Source: a virus
IMG/VR virus record: IMGVR_UViG_3300012011_000004
Span: 1-32,967 of that record
Length of the DNA stretch: 32,967 nt
Strand: one strand, 5' to 3'
Positions 4,012 through 31,436 of this stretch are shown one piece after another. Each line of letters begins with the position of its first letter. The stretch's first letter is position 1. Under the pieces are notes generated by a model. It did no database searches. It saw only the letters and a program-made list of their open reading frames with translations, and was not told the origin of the DNA. A program made the position numbers and the translations under genes.

Positions 4012-4497
4012 ATGAAGTTTCTTGCGGCTCTTGCATTTGTGGTTTTACTGCCCGTCGCCTCTCTCGCCGCCGAAAAACCCGACGACGCAAAACTCACCGA
4101 CGCAAAACTGACAGTCGAACAGGTTCTGCAGATCAACGCTGGACTTTCGCAGCTCAACTGCGGCAACAAGATCATCAAGGACGGCGCCAAGGAAACGCTG
4201 GTCTGCGAACCCTATAAGTGGTCCGCCGGCGTGAACTGGCTGATCGCCACCAACCAGCGCAAGACGACGGAAATTGCTGCGCAATATGGCAAGGTCCGCA
4301 ACCAGGCCATCGCCAATCTGCCGCACAAACCTGATGGCAGCCTGACAGACGAAGCGGCGGTGAAATTTACAGTGCAGGACCGCGAACAGCTCGACGTTAA
4401 AACCGAAATCTCCCTCGACCATTTCAAGAGAGCCGATCTTGAGCCGATGAATTTGCCGCCATCGGTTATTGCAGCGTTGCTGCCGATCATCGATTAG
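4012..4497 (+). CDS. Exported hypothetical protein, 161 aa
   Basis: Starts 7-8 bases after a strong Shine-Dalgarno (CAGGAGAG). Residues 1-19 form a Sec signal peptide ending S-L-A-A. The mature chain is mostly helical and contains two Cys residues (in SQLNCGNK and LVCEPYK) that could form a disulfide in the periplasm. The segment ADLEPMNLPPSVIAALLPII is at the C-terminus. A possible continuation lies in another frame just downstream (4498-4568). Third gene in a row with an export signal. Function unknown. Confidence 0.75.
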   Translation: MKFLAALAFVVLLPVASLAAEKPDDAKLTDAKLTVEQVLQINAGLSQLNCGNKIIKDGAKETLVCEPYKWSAGVNWLIATNQRKTTEIAAQYGKVRNQAIANLPHKPDGSLTDEAAVKFTVQDREQLDVKTEISLDHFKRADLEPMNLPPSVIAALLPIID

Positions 4498-4568
4498 ATA
4501 GCGCCAAGGCGAACGCCAAGATCAAGGAACTGACGCCGAAACCGGACGACAAGCCCGCCAAGAAATAG
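4498..4568 (+). other. Possible frameshifted C-terminal tail of the preceding gene
   Basis: Immediately after the stop of the 161-residue exported protein, a different frame stays open to a TAG at 4566-4568. It encodes a Lys/Pro-rich tail ending KELTPKPDDKPAKK. Such a charged tail looks like a natural C-terminus, so the gene may originally have been longer and lost it through a small indel. It has no start codon of its own. This is inference from composition only. Confidence 0.2.
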
Positions 4569-4569
4569 C

Positions 4570-4689
4570 CTACCGGCGATAGTCGCCACCGAACGCGGAA
4601 GGGTCGGCCTTTACGATCCTCCAAGCCACATAGAGCCATGTCACCGCGACGACGGCTGCGATGACGACACCCCAAAGCAGATATCCCAT
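4570..4689 (-). CDS. 39-aa single-pass membrane protein on the opposite strand
   Basis: An ATG at 4689 on the minus strand is preceded by a strong Shine-Dalgarno (GGGAGG, 6 bases away). The frame encodes 39 residues: MGYLLWGVVI at the start, a continuous hydrophobic helix through about residue 23, then a basic, polar tail ending GGDYRR. The topology is that of a small inner-membrane peptide. It is antisense to the surrounding late genes and lies in the 250-base gap before the muramidase gene. It could be a holin antagonist or an unrelated small membrane peptide; there is no direct evidence for either. Confidence 0.5.
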   Translation of the reverse strand: MGYLLWGVVIAAVVAVTWLYVAWRIVKADPSAFGGDYRR

Positions 4690-4753
4690 AACGCCCTCCC
4701 GGCTTTAAGGCCCGGAACCCTACACCCGCAACCTCCCCGCGAGCAAGCTGATT

Positions 4754-5284
4754 ATGATCGCCAATACCGCCCAGGCGCTCGACTTCATCATCCGGTGGGA
4801 AGGACCGGAGATCAACGAATCGTCCGGTGAACCCGGCGGCATCAGCAAGTATGGCGTGAGCCTGACGGCCTACCGGGAAGGCGGCCACCCCAACGCCGGC
4901 AAGGACGACATCCGGGCGCTGATCGAAGCCGATGCGCGGGCTTTCTACACCCGGCGCGCGTCACTGGTGCGTTTTGCCGATCTGCCTGCGGGCGTCGATC
5001 TGGCGGTGCTCAATCTTGCGGTGACGACCGGGATGACCGGCGCGGCGCTGATCCTGCAGATGACGGTCGATATCTGGCCCGCGACGGGGAAGATGGACGA
5101 TGCAACCGTTGCCGCGCTGAAGGCTGCCGACCCGAAGATAATCGTGCACGCCGCCGGCAGCGCGTGGCTGGCATGGAAGGCCCGCAGCGACACCACGCTC
5201 ACGGAGTGGGGCCGCTATCAGCACGGCTGGATCAACCGGGATCGTGACTTCCGTTCAACCGCTCTCGCAATGGTGACGGCATGA
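4754..5284 (+). CDS. Endolysin, GH108-type N-acetylmuramidase
   Basis: Cleaves peptidoglycan glycan strands during host lysis. The N-terminus (residues 8-40) matches the glycosyl hydrolase family 108 pattern: FIIRWEG with the likely catalytic Glu at 16, followed by N-E-S-S-G-E-P-G-G and YGVS. The C-terminal half, with GAALILQMTVD, GKMDDATVAAL and HGWINRDRDF, fits the PG_binding_3 region that follows GH108. Length (176 aa) is normal for the family. No signal peptide, so it would need a holin to cross the membrane. It overlaps the next gene by four bases. Confidence 0.9.
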   Translation: MIANTAQALDFIIRWEGPEINESSGEPGGISKYGVSLTAYREGGHPNAGKDDIRALIEADARAFYTRRASLVRFADLPAGVDLAVLNLAVTTGMTGAALILQMTVDIWPATGKMDDATVAALKAADPKIIVHAAGSAWLAWKARSDTTLTEWGRYQHGWINRDRDFRSTALAMVTA

Positions 5285-10273: not shown

Positions 10274-10324
10274 ATGATTCAATCTGACACCGCACAAGCT
10301 GAAGCATATCGCGATCACCCTGTC
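10274..10324 (+). repeat. Dispersed repeat copy 1 (forward, type A)
   Basis: Runs from ATGATTCAA to CACCCTGTC with the 34-base A-type spacing between ATTCAA and GCGATC. It supplies the start codon and first 17 codons of the 86-residue gene and pairs with inverted copy 2 at that gene's end. Confidence 0.8.
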
Positions 10325-10534
10325 AGCGATGATGTGGCGCTGCCGTATCTTTACCGATGGGATCGCCAAGGCTGCAAAGGCCGCGCCTGCAAAGTGCTGG
10401 CGCGCGGCAAGATGAATTCTTGTCTGGTCGAGTTCGCGGACGGCTATCAGATGGTGACAAGCCGAAACGCGATCAAGAAAAACATCAGCCAGGGTGATCG
10501 CAAACCAAAAGCAGATCGCTCCGTGCCCGGTTGA
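10274..10534 (+). CDS. Hypothetical protein carried between two inverted repeats
   Basis: 86 residues. The start codon and the N-terminus MIQSDTAQAEAYRDHPVS come from repeat copy 1. The last dozen residues and the stop codon lie in inverted copy 2. The unique middle (LPYLYRWDRQGCKGRAC ... DGYQMVTSRNAIKK) looks like a small beta-barrel with basic residues, so nucleic-acid binding is possible. Shine-Dalgarno AAGGGGTAGGG precedes the ATG. Only the central 55 or so residues are likely to be the ancestral domain. Confidence 0.65.
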   Translation: MIQSDTAQAEAYRDHPVSDDVALPYLYRWDRQGCKGRACKVLARGKMNSCLVEFADGYQMVTSRNAIKKNISQGDRKPKADRSVPG

Positions 10535-10539
10535 ATCAA
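10489..10539 (-). repeat. Dispersed repeat copy 2 (inverted, type B)
   Basis: On the minus strand it runs from TTGATTCAA to CACCCTGG with a GCTTTTGGTTTGCGATC core (35-base spacing). It is followed on the plus strand by a pyrimidine run, CCCTTTCCCC, also seen after copies 4 and 10. Closes the 10274-10534 cassette. Confidence 0.78.
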
Positions 10540-11529: not shown

Positions 11530-11601
11530 GTGAGGGAGGATTTGATTCAAGCGACCACGGAGCGATCCGCTTTTGGTTTGCGATCATCCTGTCAGCGATG
11601 A
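11530..11601 (+). CDS. 23-aa leader peptide encoded by repeat copy 3
   Basis: GTG at 11530, one base after the previous stop, opens a 23-codon frame that runs through the repeat and ends TGA in CGATGATGG. The peptide contains LIQATTERSAFGLRS. There is no downstream plus-strand gene to couple to, so it may be a by-product of the repeat. Similar peptides occur at other copies. Confidence 0.25.
   Translation: MREDLIQATTERSAFGLRSSCQR
11542..11593 (+). repeat. Dispersed repeat copy 3 (forward, type B)
   Basis: TTGATTCAA to CATCCTGTC with the GGAGCGATC and TTTTGGTTTGCGATC core of type B. Preceded by GAGGGAGGA. Pairs with inverted copy 4; together they bracket the minus-strand moron-like gene at 11653-12030. 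Confidence 0.8.
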
Positions 11602-12111: not shown

Positions 12112-12542
12112 GGTTTTGCGTTCGTTTCATCGTGTGATGTGCCTGCGGTTAAAGGCTAACTTGCATTGCGAGAAATCGCTTGACCCGATAAACGCTAGTC
12201 AACTTGCATCGGATCAGCCACATCACATTCGAGAAGTCCGCATTCTATCGAAGTAACAATTCGTGAGAAGGACTCGCTGACCGTGTGATTGCGAGACGTT
12301 TTCAACTTGCTAAGTGGTCGCTTGAACCAAAAAACCTTCCCTTCCCCAAACCGCCGCTTTTTCCCCCAAGGACGGCGGTCAGCGCGATTTCGGTCTGGAA
12401 TCCTTCGTCGCGCGAAAGTCCCGTCATTCGTTCGTGCCCCCTGAGCGGATGGCGGGCTCTTTTTCAATTCGGCGCCGTTCGCAGCCGTTCGTAACTGCGG
12501 TCCCCGGTCCCCGGCCGCGGTGCCCTCACGTAGCTCCGGCGC
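12112..12542. other. Gene-free region beside the integrase; candidate attP zone
   Basis: About 430 bases without a convincing gene, between the moron-like gene and the integrase end. It contains repeat copy 4 (12279-12330), a pyrimidine and C-rich stretch after it, and near 12494-12521 an imperfect inverted repeat ACTGCGG/CCGCGGT around a direct repeat of TCCCCGG. Frames on either strand here have no ribosome binding sites. By position it could hold the attachment site, but no crossover core can be named from one sequence. Confidence 0.35.
12279..12330 (-). repeat. Dispersed repeat copy 4 (inverted, degenerate)
   Basis: Most diverged copy. On the minus strand it reads TTGGTTCAA (losing the GATTC) and GCAATCACACGGTC (losing GATC). 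The leader frame is interrupted by TAG. Followed on the plus strand by AAAAAACCTTCCC as in copies 2 and 8. Pairs with copy 3. Confidence 0.65.
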
Positions 12543-18280: not shown

Positions 18281-18331
18281 ATGGTTCAAGTTGCCTCTGC
18301 CGGTGTTGAAACGGAATGCGATCACACTGTC
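18281..18331 (+). repeat. Dispersed repeat copy 5 (forward, type C)
   Basis: ATGGTTCAA to CACACTGTC, sharing the core CAAGTTGCCTCTGCC with copy 9. The GATTC of other copies is changed to GGTTC. Located in the only gap between two minus-strand genes in this part of the operon. It forms an inverted pair with copy 6, or an incomplete set. Confidence 0.75.
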
Positions 18332-20406: not shown

Positions 20407-21210
20407 CTAGAGAGTCCTTTCGAATGTTGCCTTGATGCCGTCGGGAAGTTGGTCGAACTCTTTGCGGAATTCCCGCGCGCTACTCAGGATTGCATCGCGA
20501 ATTTTGTCCGTGATCCCTAAAACCTTGATCGCCTTGGCGATGTCGTCGATCACCAAAACCTCGACCGTGCGCATCGACTGCGTCTTGCCGCCCATCACGC
20601 TCGAAAACCGCAGCGGCACGTTCTTGGCGGCAATCGCGGCCTGCTTGTCGGCGCGGCGGAAGTCGGAAAATGTCGCGTCCGCATGTTCGATGGCGCCGCC
20701 GACGTCGCTCTCGACGCCCTGTTGCGCATCGTCGATCGCCTCAAGCCTGACAGCGTCGGCCTGCCGCGCCAGCCGTTCGGCTTCCTCGGCCTCCGCGCGC
20801 AGCCGCTCGACCTCGGCGATGCGCTTGGCCTCGATGTCGGATGCGTATTTCGTCAGGCGCTTGCGCAGCTCAGTGCGTGCGGTTTCCAGCGTGCCTTTAT
20901 CCTTGACCAGCGCATAGGCGTCGAAGATCGCGTTGAGCCGGTCGCGGAAGGGGCGCGTTTTGGTTTCGCGCTCGGCGCGGGCTTCGTTGAGCGCCACCAG
21001 CGTTCTTTCGTTGCAGGCGGAACCGGCTTGCGCTTCGGCCTGGCTGGTGATGACCGGATGCGATTTGAGATAGGTCCGCAGTTCGTCATAGGCCTCGACG
21101 GCATACTCGATCCGCGAGGGCGGGTTGTTGTGCCCGATCGATGGCTCCGTGACAGGGTGATCGCGAGAGGCGTCAGCGAATGCGGTGCGCGATTGAATCA
21201 TGTTGGCCAT
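20407..21210 (-). CDS. Coiled-coil protein with repeat-derived N-terminus
   Basis: Start at ATG 21210 (MANMIQSRTAFADASRDHPV); the first 20 residues come from repeat copy 6. Then IGHNNPPS, a motif frequent in Rhizobiales phage proteins, and about 240 residues of mostly alpha-helix with a strong coiled coil near 130-190 (Glu/Ala/Arg heptads). No catalytic motif. Position next to a possible OB-fold protein suggests a recombination or DNA-handling role. The repeat at the 5' end may have replaced an older start. Confidence 0.65.
   Translation of the reverse strand: MANMIQSRTAFADASRDHPVTEPSIGHNNPPSRIEYAVEAYDELRTYLKSHPVITSQAEAQAGSACNERTLVALNEARAERETKTRPFRDRLNAIFDAYALVKDKGTLETARTELRKRLTKYASDIEAKRIAEVERLRAEAEEAERLARQADAVRLEAIDDAQQGVESDVGGAIEHADATFSDFRRADKQAAIAAKNVPLRFSSVMGGKTQSMRTVEVLVIDDIAKAIKVLGITDKIRDAILSSAREFRKEFDQLPDGIKATFERTL
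21151..21201 (-). repeat. Dispersed repeat copy 6 (inverted, type A)
   Basis: On the minus strand ATGATTCAA to CACCCTGTC, 34-base spacing. It encodes codons 4-20 of the minus-strand coiled-coil gene, so it is in the coding orientation for that gene. Confidence 0.8.
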
Positions 21211-23049: not shown

Positions 23050-23344
23050 CCATCCCAACCGCAGCAAGAAAGCCGAGCGTGCCGTGCTAGTTACCACGAG
23101 CCACAGGGGCGTATTCTTCGGCTATGCGCTCGATACCGATGGCGAAACGATCAAGTTGCGCGCCGCGCGAAACTGCATTTACTGGCCGGCCGACAATAAG
23201 GGATTCATGGGCCTTGCGAACATGGGGCCTGTCAAAGGTGCGCGCGTCGGCCCTGCGGCCGATATCGAGCTTCGCGATATCACTTCGGTTGCTGAGGTCA
23301 CCACTGCTGCAGTGGCAGCTTGGGAATCCGCGCCATGGAAATAA
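23042..23344 (+). CDS. DUF6948-like protein, 100 aa
   Basis: GTG 23042 is preceded by GGAGAG. AERAVLVTTSHRGVFFGYA, IKLRAARNCIYWP, and RVGPAADIELRDIT ... VAAWESAPW match a phage-associated family of unknown function that I recall as DUF6948. Compact all-beta protein. Overlaps the start of the X-Gly repeat gene by ten bases. Confidence 0.75.
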   Translation: MINHPNRSKKAERAVLVTTSHRGVFFGYALDTDGETIKLRAARNCIYWPADNKGFMGLANMGPVKGARVGPAADIELRDITSVAEVTTAAVAAWESAPWK

Positions 23345-24039
23345 GCGAAGCAAGACTCGTGCGGGGCGAAGTCCCGCACTCATTTCTTAGTAGCTCCGGC
23401 TACGGCTCCGGCGACGGCTCCGGCGACGGCTCCGGCGACGGCTCCGGCTACGGCTCCGGCTACGGCTCCGGCTCCGGCTCCGGCTACGGCTCCGGCGACG
23501 GCTCCGGCTACGGCTACGGCTACGGCTCCGGCTACGGCTCCGGCTACGGCTCCGGCGACGGCTCCGGCTACGGCTCCGGCTACGGCTCCGGCTCCGGCGA
23601 CGGCTCCGGCTACGGCTACGGCTCCGGCGACGGCTACGGCTACGGCTCCGGCTCCGGCGACGGCGACGGCTCCGGCGACGGCTACGGCTCCAAAGAATAT
23701 TGGCTCGGCACGATTCCGAATTTTGCAAGGAAGATGCCAGAGCTGCAACAGAAGCGTTTCGCGGAGTTGCAAAAAGAAGGGGCGACCATCGCGTTCTGGC
23801 GATCGGATGAAAAGGGCCGTGCTGCGAATGGCGGGAAAAACAATCCTGTTGCGCCCGGCACTGTCGAGACGGTCGCTGGACCCTTGCGTATCTGCACCGA
23901 AAAGGCCCTGCACGCGACATTTCTTCCGCCGAAATGGAAAGGCGATCGCTGGTGGCTTGTCGCGCTGATCGGCGAGATCCAGACCGACGACGACAAGGTT
24001 GCCGCCCTCACGCGCCAGATCATCGGAGAATGTCTTTGA
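23335..24039 (+). CDS. Protein with 49 X-Gly dipeptide repeats and a DUF7666-like C-terminus
   Basis: 234 residues from ATG 23335. A 20-residue N-terminus is followed by residues 21-118, an uninterrupted run of 49 dipeptides X-G with X being Ser, Tyr or Asp. From about 119 a folded domain follows (KEYWLGTIPNFARKMPEL, ATIAFWRSDEKGR, RICTEKALHATFLPPKWKG, WWLVALIGEIQTDDDK). That domain's ICTEKALHA segment resembles DUF7666 and related phage proteins in which a Cys/His stretch closes a beta sheet. The repeat is expected to be disordered and Tyr-rich, like phase-separating low-complexity regions. Function unknown. Confidence 0.75.
   Translation: MEISEARLVRGEVPHSFLSSSGYGSGDGSGDGSGDGSGYGSGYGSGSGSGYGSGDGSGYGYGYGSGYGSGYGSGDGSGYGSGYGSGSGDGSGYGYGSGDGYGYGSGSGDGDGSGDGYGSKEYWLGTIPNFARKMPELQQKRFAELQKEGATIAFWRSDEKGRAANGGKNNPVAPGTVETVAGPLRICTEKALHATFLPPKWKGDRWWLVALIGEIQTDDDKVAALTRQIIGECL
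23395..23688 (+). repeat. 294-base low-complexity array, 49 copies of a 6-base unit
   Basis: Units are TCCGGC, TACGGC or GACGGC in mixed order with no stop and constant Gly codons (GGC). Variation is only in the first and second codon positions of the alternating residue (T/G and C/A). The length is divisible by three and by six, so expansion and contraction keep the frame. Slippage-prone. Confidence 0.9.
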
Positions 24040-24309: not shown

Positions 24310-24360
24310 GACAGGGTGATCGCGAGAAGCTTCAGCATCCCTTCTGGTCGATTGAATCAA
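24310..24360 (-). repeat. Dispersed repeat copy 7 (inverted, type A)
   Basis: Minus strand TTGATTCAA to CACCCTGTC; frame open as LIQSTRRDAEASRDHPV. About 45 bases after the repeat, with CTAGTTTCGGTTGCGTC at the start, are also similar to those after copy 12, so the shared block is near 95 bases. Confidence 0.8.
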
Positions 24361-24653: not shown

Positions 24654-24733
24654 GGGAAGGTTTTTTGATTCAATCGGACACGGAGCCATCTGCTTTTGGT
24701 TTGCGATCAACCGGCAACGGGGGCGCGGCATGA
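24650..24733 (+). CDS. 27-aa leader peptide from repeat copy 8
   Basis: ATG 24650 overlaps the previous stop (ATGA) and the frame runs through repeat copy 8 to a TGA that overlaps ATG 24730. The peptide contains GFLIQSDTEPSAFGLRS. Exact coupling on both sides suggests ribosomes pass through the repeat to reach the zinc protein. Confidence 0.35.
   Translation: MREGFLIQSDTEPSAFGLRSTGNGGAA
24665..24715 (+). repeat. Dispersed repeat copy 8 (forward, type B)
   Basis: TTGATTCAA to GATCAACCGGC with the GGAGCCATCTGCTTTTGG core. Preceded by GAGGGAAGG, usable as a ribosome binding site for a TTG start. The outer end of the GATCACC motif is altered (GATCAACC). Confidence 0.75.
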
Positions 24734-26090: not shown

Positions 26091-26470
26091 ATAACGATGC
26101 GCGTAATGCAGAGATCATCGCCATGCGTGGCAAGAAATCGATGGGATTGATCGCGAAGGAATTTGGAATCTTCCGTCATGCCGTCGCTGGTATCTTCTTT
26201 CGGCATTCGCACCCCGGACAAAGATCGACAGGAACGGGGCGCCGCAATAACGGCACGCACGCAACAATTTGCATCCGCCTCGGTGGCAAGGTCGGTCGAA
26301 ACAATGCATGGGGCGTCAAAATCGCGCTCGGAAAAATCGCTGATCTCTGCAAGGACACAGATAGTCGGGATATTCGGAAACAATGTCTGGAAATCGCGGA
26401 GTCCTCTCTCGCGCTCGCCGATAAAAATCGAGACAAGAAGCGTAAGTCCCGCGCGGAGGCCGCCGCGTGA
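26087..26470 (+). CDS. HTH-containing basic protein, 127 aa
   Basis: GTG 26087 overlaps the preceding stop (GTGA). Residues 8-45 (AEIIAMRGKKSMGLIAKEFGIFRHAVAGIFFRH) form a helix-turn-helix of the kind used by small phage regulators. The rest is very basic with Lys/Arg-rich ends (NRDKKRKSRAEAAA). DNA binding probable; target unknown. Confidence 0.65.
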   Translation: MNNDARNAEIIAMRGKKSMGLIAKEFGIFRHAVAGIFFRHSHPGQRSTGTGRRNNGTHATICIRLGGKVGRNNAWGVKIALGKIADLCKDTDSRDIRKQCLEIAESSLALADKNRDKKRKSRAEAAA

Positions 26471-26979
26471 AACAGTCCCGCATAATGTCGATGGTGGAAA
26501 CCTGCCTCAACACGGCCATCGGTTTTGTGATCGCGATCGCGACGCAGCTCCTGGTGTTTCCGCTGTTCGGCTATTCGCCGCCGCTGTCGACCAATTTCAA
26601 GATCGCGCTGATTTTCACCGTGGTCTCGATTGTGCGCGGCTTTGTGTTCCGGCGGCTGTTTGAATTTTTGCACATCCGCCGGCCGCTGTCGGCCTTCATG
26701 CAAGCTGTGGTTGCAGAACGCTTCCGCCAGATCGAGGCCGAGGGCTGGTCGCTCGAGCATGACGACATGATTCCGAACGGCGACCTTGCTCAGGCAGGAT
26801 CCTGTTACGCCCGCTATGCCGGAATGCCGATGCGCGACAACCGAGCGCCCGACGAATGGCCGTGGTCGATCGAGTGGTGGAAACCGGCAGGCTTCCGCCG
26901 CGATCTTGTCCGCAGCGCTGCATTGATTTTGGCTGAAGGGGAAAAGTTCGATCGTAGCCGCAAGGGGAAGCGGGCATGA
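26467..26979 (+). CDS. Fusion of a DUF7220-like membrane domain and a phage helical domain
   Basis: 170 residues from GTG 26467 (GTGA overlap). Residues 1-75 (MKQSRIMSMVETCLNTAIGFVIA ... IFTVVSIVRGFVFRRLFEFL) contain two membrane helices and match the DUF7220 pattern. Residues 80-165 (FMQAVVAERFRQIEAEGW, EHDDMIPNGDLAQAG, APDEWPWSIEWWKP, RSAALILAEGEKFDR) match a separate soluble phage domain whose conserved EHDD may bind metal. In my memory these are usually separate proteins, so the fusion is notable. Confidence 0.7.
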   Translation: MKQSRIMSMVETCLNTAIGFVIAIATQLLVFPLFGYSPPLSTNFKIALIFTVVSIVRGFVFRRLFEFLHIRRPLSAFMQAVVAERFRQIEAEGWSLEHDDMIPNGDLAQAGSCYARYAGMPMRDNRAPDEWPWSIEWWKPAGFRRDLVRSAALILAEGEKFDRSRKGKRA

Positions 26980-28010
26980 AGCAAGGGTTGATTCAAGTTG
27001 CCTCTGCCGTTGCGGATGGGGAATGCGATCACCCTGTCAGGGAGCGAGCGCTGGCGAACGGCCTGCTTGCTGAGGGCTATGACGTGATCGGCTTCGATAT
27101 CGAGCAGCACCAATATGGCGATCATCGCTACCCGGCCCAGCTTGTCATCCAAGACGTGACCACGCTGCACGGCTCGCAATTCAAGAGCGCGGCGCTGATC
27201 GTCGCATCCCCTCCGTGCCAAAAGTACAGTTACATGGCGATGCCGTGGACGCTGGCGAAAGCGAAGGCCGCTGCGATCCGCGCCGATAAGAGCGGGACTA
27301 TGCTCGCAGATTTGAATTGTCTGTTTGATGCCTGCTTTCGCATTCAGCGCGAGGCTTGCGAAGCGGCCGGCCGGCATATTCCGCTGATCGTGGAGAACGT
27401 CAAAGGAGCCCAGCCGTGGGTCGGGCGAGCTCGTTGGTCGTTCGGTAGTTTCTATCTTTGGGGCGATATACCGGCCCTCATGCCGATCGTGCTCAAAGCG
27501 CAGAAGGTGCCGGGCTTTCGGTTTGATGGATCTGGAAAGTCTTTCCAAAGCGCAAGCGTTGCAATAACGGACGGACGCAAGAACGGGAACGACTGGTTCG
27601 GCGCTGGCGAGGATTGTTCGCTCCAGCGCAAGCACGGATCGAAGTCCAGCGGGCGCAAGATGGCGTCCGCCATGATCGCGAAGATTCCGCTGCCGTTGAG
27701 CCGATGGATCGGCGCGGCCTTCCTTCCCGTAGCAGCAACTCCAACTACCACGGTGATCGCAAACCAAGCGCCGTCCGCGCCGTGCCCGATTGAATCAAAT
27801 CTTCCCCTTACTCCTGAAATACCCAGGGAGGCGTCTGGTACGGCTCGCGAGGCCCCCAGCACCGGTTGCGGAACATCTTTCGATGTAGGGACACAGTCCG
27901 CGCCTCCAACCGAACCCGGCGCCGGAGGGCTTCCTGCGCCGCCAGCGTCCGCACCGTTGGTCGCCCCCTCCCGTGGTGCGGACGCGCTCAATTCGGATGC
28001 TGCGACATGA
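26976..28010 (+). CDS. DNA cytosine-5-methyltransferase-like protein lacking motif I
   Basis: 344 residues. Residues about 27-60 (ANGLLAEGYDVIGFDIEQHQYGDHRYP) correspond to the part after motif I in cytosine methyltransferases. Motif IV is IVASPPCQKYS (Cys near residue 81) and motif VI is IPLIVENVKGAQPWVG (Glu near 139). The Phe-x-Gly-x-Gly motif I for SAM binding is absent: instead the first 21 codons come from repeat copy 9. The C-terminal 85 residues are a Pro/Ala/Ser-rich tail that starts with sequence from inverted copy 10 (NQAPSAPCPIESNL). So both ends are repeat-derived, and enzyme activity is doubtful. Confidence 0.75.
   Translation: MKQGLIQVASAVADGECDHPVRERALANGLLAEGYDVIGFDIEQHQYGDHRYPAQLVIQDVTTLHGSQFKSAALIVASPPCQKYSYMAMPWTLAKAKAAAIRADKSGTMLADLNCLFDACFRIQREACEAAGRHIPLIVENVKGAQPWVGRARWSFGSFYLWGDIPALMPIVLKAQKVPGFRFDGSGKSFQSASVAITDGRKNGNDWFGAGEDCSLQRKHGSKSSGRKMASAMIAKIPLPLSRWIGAAFLPVAATPTTTVIANQAPSAPCPIESNLPLTPEIPREASGTAREAPSTGCGTSFDVGTQSAPPTEPGAGGLPAPPASAPLVAPSRGADALNSDAAT
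26988..27038 (+). repeat. Dispersed repeat copy 9 (forward, type C)
   Basis: TTGATTCAA to CACCCTGTC, core CAAGTTGCCTCTGCC as in copy 5. Encodes residues 5-21 of the methyltransferase-like protein. Pairs with inverted copy 10. Confidence 0.8.
27748..27798 (-). repeat. Dispersed repeat copy 10 (inverted, type B)
   Basis: Minus strand TTGATTCAA to GATCACCGTGG with a GCTTGGTTTGCGATC core. In the sense frame it encodes NQAPSAPCPIES of the methyltransferase-like protein. Followed by CTTCCCCTTA. Confidence 0.78.
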
Positions 28011-29124: not shown

Positions 29125-29216
29125 AGTTGGAGGAAGCGAAAAATATGATTCAATCTGACACCGCACAAGCGGAAAGCTCTCGCGATCACCCTGTTGGCGA
29201 GGATGCAGCGTCATGA
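29121..29216 (+). CDS. 31-aa leader peptide through repeat copy 11
   Basis: ATG 29121 overlaps the preceding stop (ATGA) and the frame runs MKLEEAKNMIQSDTAQAESS through repeat copy 11 to a TGA overlapping ATG 29213. GGAGGAAG inside it may also drive the internal ATG 29145. Third case of a translated, coupled repeat. Confidence 0.4.
   Translation: MKLEEAKNMIQSDTAQAESSRDHPVGEDAAS
29145..29195 (+). repeat. Dispersed repeat copy 11 (forward, type A)
   Basis: ATGATTCAA to CACCCTGTT; the core is almost identical to copy 1 (GACACCGCACAAGC). Forms an inverted pair with copy 12, with the gene at 29213-29641 between them. Confidence 0.8.
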
Positions 29217-29641
29217 GCCGGTCCGGATATAACGATGATTTCCAAGATTGGGAACTGATCTGCTGGCGCGGCGCGGTCGCGAGCGCGATACGCGGCAATC
29301 GAGGACAAGCGTTTCTCGAAGAAATGCTTCACGCGATGGCCGCGCTGCCCGAGCGCAAGCTGGTTTCCAATGAACTTGAGACGACCGATGGCGCGGTCTG
29401 CGCGTTAGGCGCTATCGGTAAATCTCGCGGCATCGACATGAAAGACCTTGACCCCGAAGATCGTGAAACGGTCGCAAAGGTGTTCGGCATTGCACCGGCC
29501 CTCGCCGCCGAGATTGTTTACATGAACGACGAAGGCTGTTGGTACGGCGTCGAAACGCCGGAGCAACGCTTCGCCAGAATGCGCGCGTGGATCGAAGATC
29601 AAATCTTCGAAGCAAAAGCTGAATCACCGCTACCCGGGTGA
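29213..29641 (+). CDS. Hypothetical protein between inverted repeats, 142 aa
   Basis: ATGA overlap with the repeat leader. Starts MSRSGYNDDFQDWELICWRGAVASAIRGNRGQAFLEEML. Helical with TTDGAVCALGAIGKSRGIDM in the centre and YGVETPEQRFARMRAWIED toward the end. Its stop codon lies inside repeat copy 12. It looks like a soluble phage early protein; function unknown. Flanked as one gene per repeat pair. Confidence 0.7.
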   Translation: MSRSGYNDDFQDWELICWRGAVASAIRGNRGQAFLEEMLHAMAALPERKLVSNELETTDGAVCALGAIGKSRGIDMKDLDPEDRETVAKVFGIAPALAAEIVYMNDEGCWYGVETPEQRFARMRAWIEDQIFEAKAESPLPG

Positions 29642-29682
29642 TCGCGAGAAGCCTCAACAGCTTCACTGGTCGCTTGAATCAA
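29632..29682 (-). repeat. Dispersed repeat copy 12 (inverted, type A)
   Basis: Minus strand TTGATTCAA to GATCACCCGGG; frame open as LIQATSEAVEASRDHPG. The 45 bases after it resemble those after copy 7 (CTAGTTCCTGTTGCGTC). Confidence 0.78.
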
Positions 29683-30023: not shown

Positions 30024-30973
30024 GGAATCAGGATTTGATTCAATCTGACACTGCCAATGCGGGGGCGTCTCGCGATCACCCTGTCAGCGGCGCGGTCGCG
30101 CAAAGGAAGCCCTACCAGATTTCCGTCCAGTTTTCTGGCGGCGCGGCCTCCTATGTTGCTGCGAAGCTGATCCTGGACGAACACGGCCACGATGACGTCG
30201 CGCTGATCTTCGCTGACACCCTGATCGAGGATGAAGACCTTTATCGGTTTTTGGACGAAGCCGAACAGCGCTTGCAGCATCCGGTCATCAGAATTTCCGA
30301 GGGCCGCGATCCATGGACGGTCTTTTTCGACGAACGGATGATGGGAAATTCGCGCGTCGATCCATGTTCCAAGATTCTGAAGCGCAAGCTGCTGGACAAG
30401 TGGCGCGCGGAACATTGCGCCATCGATTGCACGCTGATCATCGGTTACGACGCCAGCGAAGATTTCCGGTTTCAGCCGCTCAAGGCAAGGATGCTGCCGG
30501 TCAAGGTGCGTGCGCCGTTGCTGGAACAAGGCATCTGGAAAGAGCAGGTTTACGCCATCGTTGAAGCGGACGGCCTTCGCCTGCCTTGCCTCTACAAGAT
30601 GGGATTCGCCCACAATAATTGCGGAGGCTTTTGCGTGAAGTCCGGGCAGGCATCCTTTGCGCTGCTCTTGGAAACCATGCCTGCGCGATATGCCGAACAC
30701 GAAGCCAAGGAAGATCAATTCCGGAAGTTCATCGGCAAAGACGTTTCGATCATGCGCGAGCGGCGCAATGGCGTCAGCAAGCCGCTAACGATGCGAGCGT
30801 TCCGCGAGCGCCATGAGCGCGAGCCTATGCTGATCGACCGTTCCGATGTTGGCGGCTGTACGTGCATGGAAGAACCTGATCTCGCCGCGAGCGACGATGA
30901 CAGGGTGATCGTAAACCAAGCGCAGACCGCTCCGTGCCCGATTGAATCAAACCTTTTTCCGGAGGCACCATGA
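30020..30973 (+). CDS. PAPS-reductase-like PP-loop protein
   Basis: 317 residues from ATG 30020. Residues 6-22 (LIQSDTANAGASRDHPV) come from repeat copy 13. The domain begins near residue 31 with ISVQFSGGAASYVAAKLI, a PP-loop in which the usual S-G-G-K-D-S is S-G-G-A-A-S. Also VALIFADTLIEDEDLYRF and IGYDASEDFRFQPLK, as in phage PAPS-reductase/DndC-like proteins. FAHNNCGGFCVKSGQ has a Cys pair that may hold an iron-sulfur centre. Last residues (NQAQTAPCPIESNL) come from inverted copy 14. Such enzymes adenylate or move sulfur; here DNA or nucleotide modification is a guess. Confidence 0.82.
   Translation: MRNQDLIQSDTANAGASRDHPVSGAVAQRKPYQISVQFSGGAASYVAAKLILDEHGHDDVALIFADTLIEDEDLYRFLDEAEQRLQHPVIRISEGRDPWTVFFDERMMGNSRVDPCSKILKRKLLDKWRAEHCAIDCTLIIGYDASEDFRFQPLKARMLPVKVRAPLLEQGIWKEQVYAIVEADGLRLPCLYKMGFAHNNCGGFCVKSGQASFALLLETMPARYAEHEAKEDQFRKFIGKDVSIMRERRNGVSKPLTMRAFRERHEREPMLIDRSDVGGCTCMEEPDLAASDDDRVIVNQAQTAPCPIESNLFPEAP
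30035..30085 (+). repeat. Dispersed repeat copy 13 (forward, type A)
   Basis: TTGATTCAA to CACCCTGTC, core GACACTGCCAATGC. It encodes residues 6-22 of the PP-loop protein and forms an inverted pair with copy 14. Confidence 0.8.
30899..30950 (-). repeat. Dispersed repeat copy 14 (inverted, type B)
   Basis: Minus strand TTGATTCAA to CACCCTGTC with GCGCTTGGTTTACGATC. In the sense frame it encodes VNQAQTAPCPIES of the PP-loop protein. TTTTTCCGGAGG follows at once and is the ribosome binding site of the next gene. Confidence 0.8.
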
Positions 30974-31173
30974 AACATCGCTGGGGCGAAAAGACCGTGG
31001 TGTCCGCCAACAAGACCGAGCGCGAATGCCAAAACGGCTGCGGCATCGTCAAGGTGTCGCGCCACGAGGTCGAAGGCGGGCGCGATCAGCACTGGATCGA
31101 ATTCTGGCGCGGGCTCGATCGGATCGAGGGCGACAAGACGCCGGTTTGTGAGCCGATAGAGGTGAACGCATGA
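30970..31173 (+). CDS. Small Cys-containing protein, 67 aa
   Basis: ATG 30970 with CCGGAGG upstream and ATGA overlap with the PP-loop gene. ERECQNGCGIVKVSRHEV ... HWIEFWRGLDRIE: a probable zinc site and a beta-rich core. Function unknown; ATGA overlap with the next gene. Confidence 0.65.
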   Translation: MKHRWGEKTVVSANKTERECQNGCGIVKVSRHEVEGGRDQHWIEFWRGLDRIEGDKTPVCEPIEVNA

Positions 31174-31436
31174 CAAGATCGTTCCGCAACCGCGTTCCGG
31201 TGGCGCGCGTGGTACTCGGCCAGTCGCTGGGCATGGCGGTTGCCATCTATGCCGAAACTGCCGCCGATATCGGCGTGCCGCTGGTCGAAGTCGTCGGCGC
31301 ACTTGAACATCTGCAGCACTTGACGCCGGAGCAGGCCGAGCAATTCGCCGAGGGCCTGAAGCTGGCCGCGCGCGTGGCGCGGGGCGAAGTGCTGCCGACG
31401 CCGCTGGACGAATTCCTTTCCAAGAGGCGCGCATGA
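31170..31436 (+). CDS. Hypothetical protein, 88 aa
   Basis: ATGA overlaps on both sides. Helical throughout (VARVVLGQSLGMAVAIYAETAADIGVPLVEVVGALEHL), no signal peptide, ends DEFLSKRRA. No family recognised; part of the replication operon. Confidence 0.65.
   Translation: MTRSFRNRVPVARVVLGQSLGMAVAIYAETAADIGVPLVEVVGALEHLQHLTPEQAEQFAEGLKLAARVARGEVLPTPLDEFLSKRRA

Follow-up and report, generated by a model that had tools for sequence, protein, structure and literature searches.

A dispersed repeat in the place of motif I of a phage C5-cytosine-methyltransferase-like gene

The locus and its repeat family

The window, i.e., the whole stretch of DNA that was analysed, is an entire linear IMG/VR contig of 32,967 bases from an uncultured phage and is possibly a genome fragment. 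Its ORF 26976-28010, which matches DNA methylases in both Pfam and PHROG, begins with an ATG overlapping the stop of a DUF7220 gene (ATGA), and its own stop overlaps the start of a DUF5131 gene (ATGA). The features of this locus are as follows.

26467..26979, plus strand: DUF7220-domain gene, upstream neighbour, kept in G001, L115, L122 and L123
26976..28010, plus strand: methyltransferase-like ORF, 344 aa
26989..27036, plus strand: type-C repeat, copy 9 (48-nt core), read in frame within the methyltransferase-like ORF
27060..27728, plus strand: conserved methyltransferase body, residues 29-251
27207..27221, plus strand: motif IV (SPPCQ), residues 78-82
27393..27401, plus strand: motif VI (ENV), residues 140-142
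27749..27797, minus strand: type-B repeat, copy 10 (49 nt), crossed by the open frame, giving TVIANQAPSAPCPIES
27798..28007, plus strand: Pro/Ala-rich C-terminal tail with no counterpart in the aligned relatives

The preliminary description of this DNA held that motifs IV and VI are intact, and both were found, motif IV with its catalytic Cys. In alignment A1, the S, P, P and C of motif IV are invariant and the Q nearly so, while ENV is invariant. The Pfam match of the protein (PF00145, DNA_methylase) covers only profile positions 43-77 and stays below the cut-off; three intact relatives score above it and match from profile position 4. Judged from its sequence, the product of the ORF is confirmed as a C5-cytosine-methyltransferase-like protein without motif I.

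Copies 9 and 10 belong to a 48/49-nt repeat, TGATTCAA...CGATCACCCTGTC, found 14 times in the window and 8 times in G001, a divergent relative (contig of 55,970 bases) that is broadly collinear with the window once reversed. The other copies in the window are listed below.

10275..10322, plus strand: copy 1
10490..10538, minus strand: copy 2
11543..11591, plus strand: copy 3, same site as reversed G001 6904
12281..12329, minus strand: copy 4
18282..18329, plus strand: copy 5, solo; at this site a repeat-flanked gene (DHHA1-like motif) lies in G001
21153..21200, minus strand: copy 6, start of an exonuclease-like gene (in frame)
24312..24359, minus strand: copy 7
24666..24714, plus strand: copy 8
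29146..29193, plus strand: copy 11, same site as reversed G001 27085
29634..29681, minus strand: copy 12
30036..30083, plus strand: copy 13, start of a PAPS-reductase-like gene (in frame)
30901..30949, minus strand: copy 14, end of the same PAPS-reductase-like gene (in frame)

The 48-nt copies tend toward gene starts and the 49-nt copies toward gene ends, with exceptions (by eye, on our own gene calls). With regard to a MITE-like mobile element, many copies pair as inverted ends but others stand alone; no obvious target-site duplication was seen by eye in the repeat flanks. Folded as RNA, single copies give structures that differ from copy to copy. Beyond the window and G001, exact-pattern matches in genome and viral contigs were taken for chance, named phages gave no exact-pattern match, and a repeat search returned a match in L100 (E 0.0019). 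The literature on such phage repeats yielded loosely related papers only.

In three other repeat-bounded genes, the homology domain of the product is untouched by the repeat. For the PAPS-reductase-like protein, similarity to phage records starts at residue 9-36, for the exonuclease-like protein at residue 50 of its longer ORF, and for the 29213 gene product at residue 1. Relatives of the PAPS-reductase-like and 29213 genes were found in phage records and none in viral contigs.

Two other sequence features can be mentioned. TGATTCAA contains a GANTC site, the target of CcrM in alphaproteobacteria, and 12 of the 80 GANTC sites of the window lie inside repeats; such sites are rarer than expected from base composition (80 vs 120 expected in the window, 86 vs 200 in G001). 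The window also carries a twelve-base tandem repeat at 23333-23734, within ORF 23335-24039, whose L120 homologue matches residues 1-18 and 120-234 only.

The two ends of the gene

A search of viral contigs led to 80 loci related to the methyltransferase-like protein; their matches start between query residues 25 and 31, in most cases at 27-30. Motif I, mostly as IDLFCGLGGW and otherwise as a variant of it, is found in every one of the 80, directly before or at the match start. In the window protein, ANGLLAEGYDVIGFDIE starts at residue 27, which bears out the proposal that it is the sequence normally following motif I. In the alignment with the relatives, suggested earlier as a way to find the breakpoint, DNA similarity begins abruptly at 27058-27060. 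Upstream, copy 9 occupies the place of native codons ~3-17, including motif I, with its core (nhmmer E about 1e-11 to 1e-12) coding for roughly residues 5-20 and the frame staying open. The claim that motif I is missing and that codons of copy 9 stand in its place is therefore in agreement with all 80 relatives.

No fitting motif I was detected near the gene in any frame, and the two loose pattern matches elsewhere in the window are both unrelated. In the same way, the record revealed neither an intact copy of the gene nor a second C5 methyltransferase, its sole PF00145 match being ORF 26976-28010 from profile position 43. Among 385 genomes of the class of G002, relatives occur in one genome, as two genes that both have motif I.

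The other end of the gene is different. Homology to the relatives runs to about residue 251 (GAAFLP), before the inverted copy 10, and the conserved C-terminal end KIPLPLSRWIGAAFLP is present in the window protein. The C-terminus had been described as cut in the same manner as the N-terminus; the native end is in fact complete and is extended, not cut, by copy 10, which only adds a tail. The comparison thus supports the idea of a repeat boundary cutting into the methyltransferase gene at the 5' end and goes against it at the 3' end.

Among the relatives, the methyltransferase of L068 (4935-5669) has an intact motif I and a divergent C-terminal end, departs from the others at 12 conserved columns and is possibly frameshifted.

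Origin of the junction and state of the enzyme

Four repeat sites of the window (11543, 18282, 26989 and 29146) match sites of reversed G001 (6904, 11023, 22929 and 27085, respectively). At all four, one flanking gene is orthologous to that of G001 and the other is not. This makes the repeats look like exchange junctions, although mosaic phage genomes often change neighbours in any case. At site 18282, the gene past the G001 cassette is orthologous again. The correspondence is looser at site 26989, where G001 has extra genes between DUF7220 and the repeat. In both contigs, type-C copies separate DUF7220 from a C5 methyltransferase; the two methyltransferases differ, and that of G001, which follows the type-C copy, has its own intact motif I. 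No repeats were found in the stretches compared of the syntenic L115, L120, L122 and L123.

This sequence comparison favours an exchange at the repeat whose junction fell within motif I. However, in L002 DUF7220 is immediately followed by an intact methyltransferase of the family of the window protein, and the two overlap by the same ATGA. This arrangement fits an invasion in place, not an exchange, and makes invasion the alternative origin.

Some further observations concern these contigs. In L002, the DUF7220-like match upstream of the methyltransferase (4496-4953) is split over two frames, as if frameshifted. G001 carries at 31071-31195 (L109 11071-11195) two repeat copies, one forward and one inverted, separated by about 24 nt; they lie within a long open frame, near a C5 methyltransferase with intact motif I. 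G001 also carries at 44016-44942 (L110 4016-4942) a repeat-flanked gene ending GGGHRNAAGYQVIANQ..., whose C-terminus runs into the repeat and which, from its DHHA1-like motif, we take to be perhaps a DHH phosphohydrolase.

According to the favoured origin, a phage C5-cytosine-methyltransferase gene would have become fused with a dispersed repeat where a recombination junction fell inside motif I, the repeats being junctions where related phages may swap neighbouring genes. Without the glycine loop and the native first strand, the product should neither bind SAM properly nor methylate DNA. It appears rather likely that the repeat junction beheaded the gene, probably recently, and left an enzyme unable to bind SAM; an inactive enzyme is the simplest reading, and a recent accident the simplest cause.

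Beyond its N-terminus, the gene does not look degraded. Among 85 columns conserved at ≥94% identity in 50 relatives, the window protein departs at 8, of which 7 lie in the motif-I region and the last is V165I, so that 77 of the 78 columns outside this region are kept. The body contains no stops in the codon comparison. In pairwise pN/pS over 213 codon columns, the window has the fifth lowest value among 48 sequences, whether all pairs are taken (0.316 vs a median of 0.365) or those with the ten nearest sequences (0.233 vs 0.309). Pairwise pN/pS compares present-day sequences and each pair mixes two lineages, with pS to the twelve nearest (0.58-0.75) near saturation; these values therefore indicate no relaxed constraint in the body and do not date the loss of motif I. 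The term “degraded enzyme”, used in the preliminary description, thus suits the N-terminus only. The other term used there, “decoy”, finds neither support nor contradiction in these data. Since the body is without decay, motif I would have been lost recently, or the product would still be made at little cost.

The undecayed body and the frame left open through both repeats also fit a protein under selection, which counts against the preferred reading of a recently inactivated enzyme. The protein could be a retained pseudoenzyme that no longer methylates and is maintained because it continues to bind its DNA target or a relative. DNMT3L, which is catalytically dead, serves DNMT3A in this way. 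A body as constrained as in the relatives and the ATGA overlaps with both neighbours are in favour of this hypothesis. Nevertheless, a recent loss would give the same picture and the record holds no second C5 methyltransferase to regulate, so that we regard it as doubtful.

Alternatively, the enzyme could still be active, either because the repeat peptide GLIQVAS replaces strand 1 or because another protein supplies motif I in trans. In a first AlphaFold model, whose alignment included relatives carrying motif I, the repeat-derived residues 4-8 form a strand (pLDDT 88 for the first block) and residues 15-19 fall below 50; this strand also speaks against the reading of an inactive enzyme. The model matches C5 methyltransferases, the best being 3g7u (Z 11.9, rmsd 4.3, 183 aligned, residues 2-253). 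In a control where the relatives were trimmed to begin at GLLAEG, thus withholding the motif-I rows, a strand stays at residues 5-11, but the helix 26-32 is lost, the first block drops to 66 and the mean pLDDT drops from 72.1 to 60.4, a decrease not due to motif I alone as the trimming stripped other information too. These predictions weakly support a possible substitute first strand derived from the repeat peptide, whereas the glycine loop is absent and is without a substitute in the sequence. As for help in trans, fragment complementation of C5 methyltransferases and natural two-subunit enzymes are known, but both natural splits hold motifs I-VIII together in the large subunit (PMC3404938). 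The partner evoked in the preliminary description was sought in the record, which is linear and possibly a fragment, and neither a protein nor a fragment supplying motif I was found. Continued activity is therefore unlikely.

A broader proposal, just as improbable in our view, is that the repeats constitute an exchange-junction system lending its start, and often its end, to the gene between them, the beheaded methyltransferase being kept as a non-methylating DNA-binding protein. Finally, an assembly chimera joining two phage sequences at a repeat copy, conceivable for a metagenomic record with dispersed repeats, is very improbable, as the reading frame is uninterrupted, the overlaps with the two neighbouring genes look natural, and copy 9 with its flanks has no exact match longer than 18 bases elsewhere in the record, so that an assembler using words of at least 21 would not join there because of the repeat.

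Comparison with known systems

At this locus one can read how a short dispersed repeat rewrites the ends of phage genes: an N-terminal motif is lost, C-termini are extended, and neighbours are swapped at sites shared with a related phage. The locus is also a natural setting in which to ask whether a C5 methyltransferase keeps any function once motif I is gone.

The window protein shares motifs IV and VI with the C5-cytosine DNA methyltransferases (PF00145; M.HaeIII, M.HhaI and the prophage enzyme 3g7u), to which its predicted fold is similar, and it has close phage relatives among them. It differs from them by the replacement of motif I by repeat-encoded residues and by its Pfam score below the cut-off.

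Small mobile repeats that become fused in frame with genes are known, among them the Rickettsia palindromic elements (PMC2229807). Like the Rickettsia elements, the repeat of the window is short, dispersed and read in frame inside protein genes, and forms inverted pairs. Unlike them, it is found in a phage, mostly at gene ends, removes a catalytic motif, and is known here without an established mobilising enzyme or target duplication. In Cluster K mycobacteriophages, start-associated sequences are found at translation starts upstream of genes (PMC3203893). The repeats described here are also tied to phage gene starts, but they are read as N-termini and are found, inverted, at gene ends as well.
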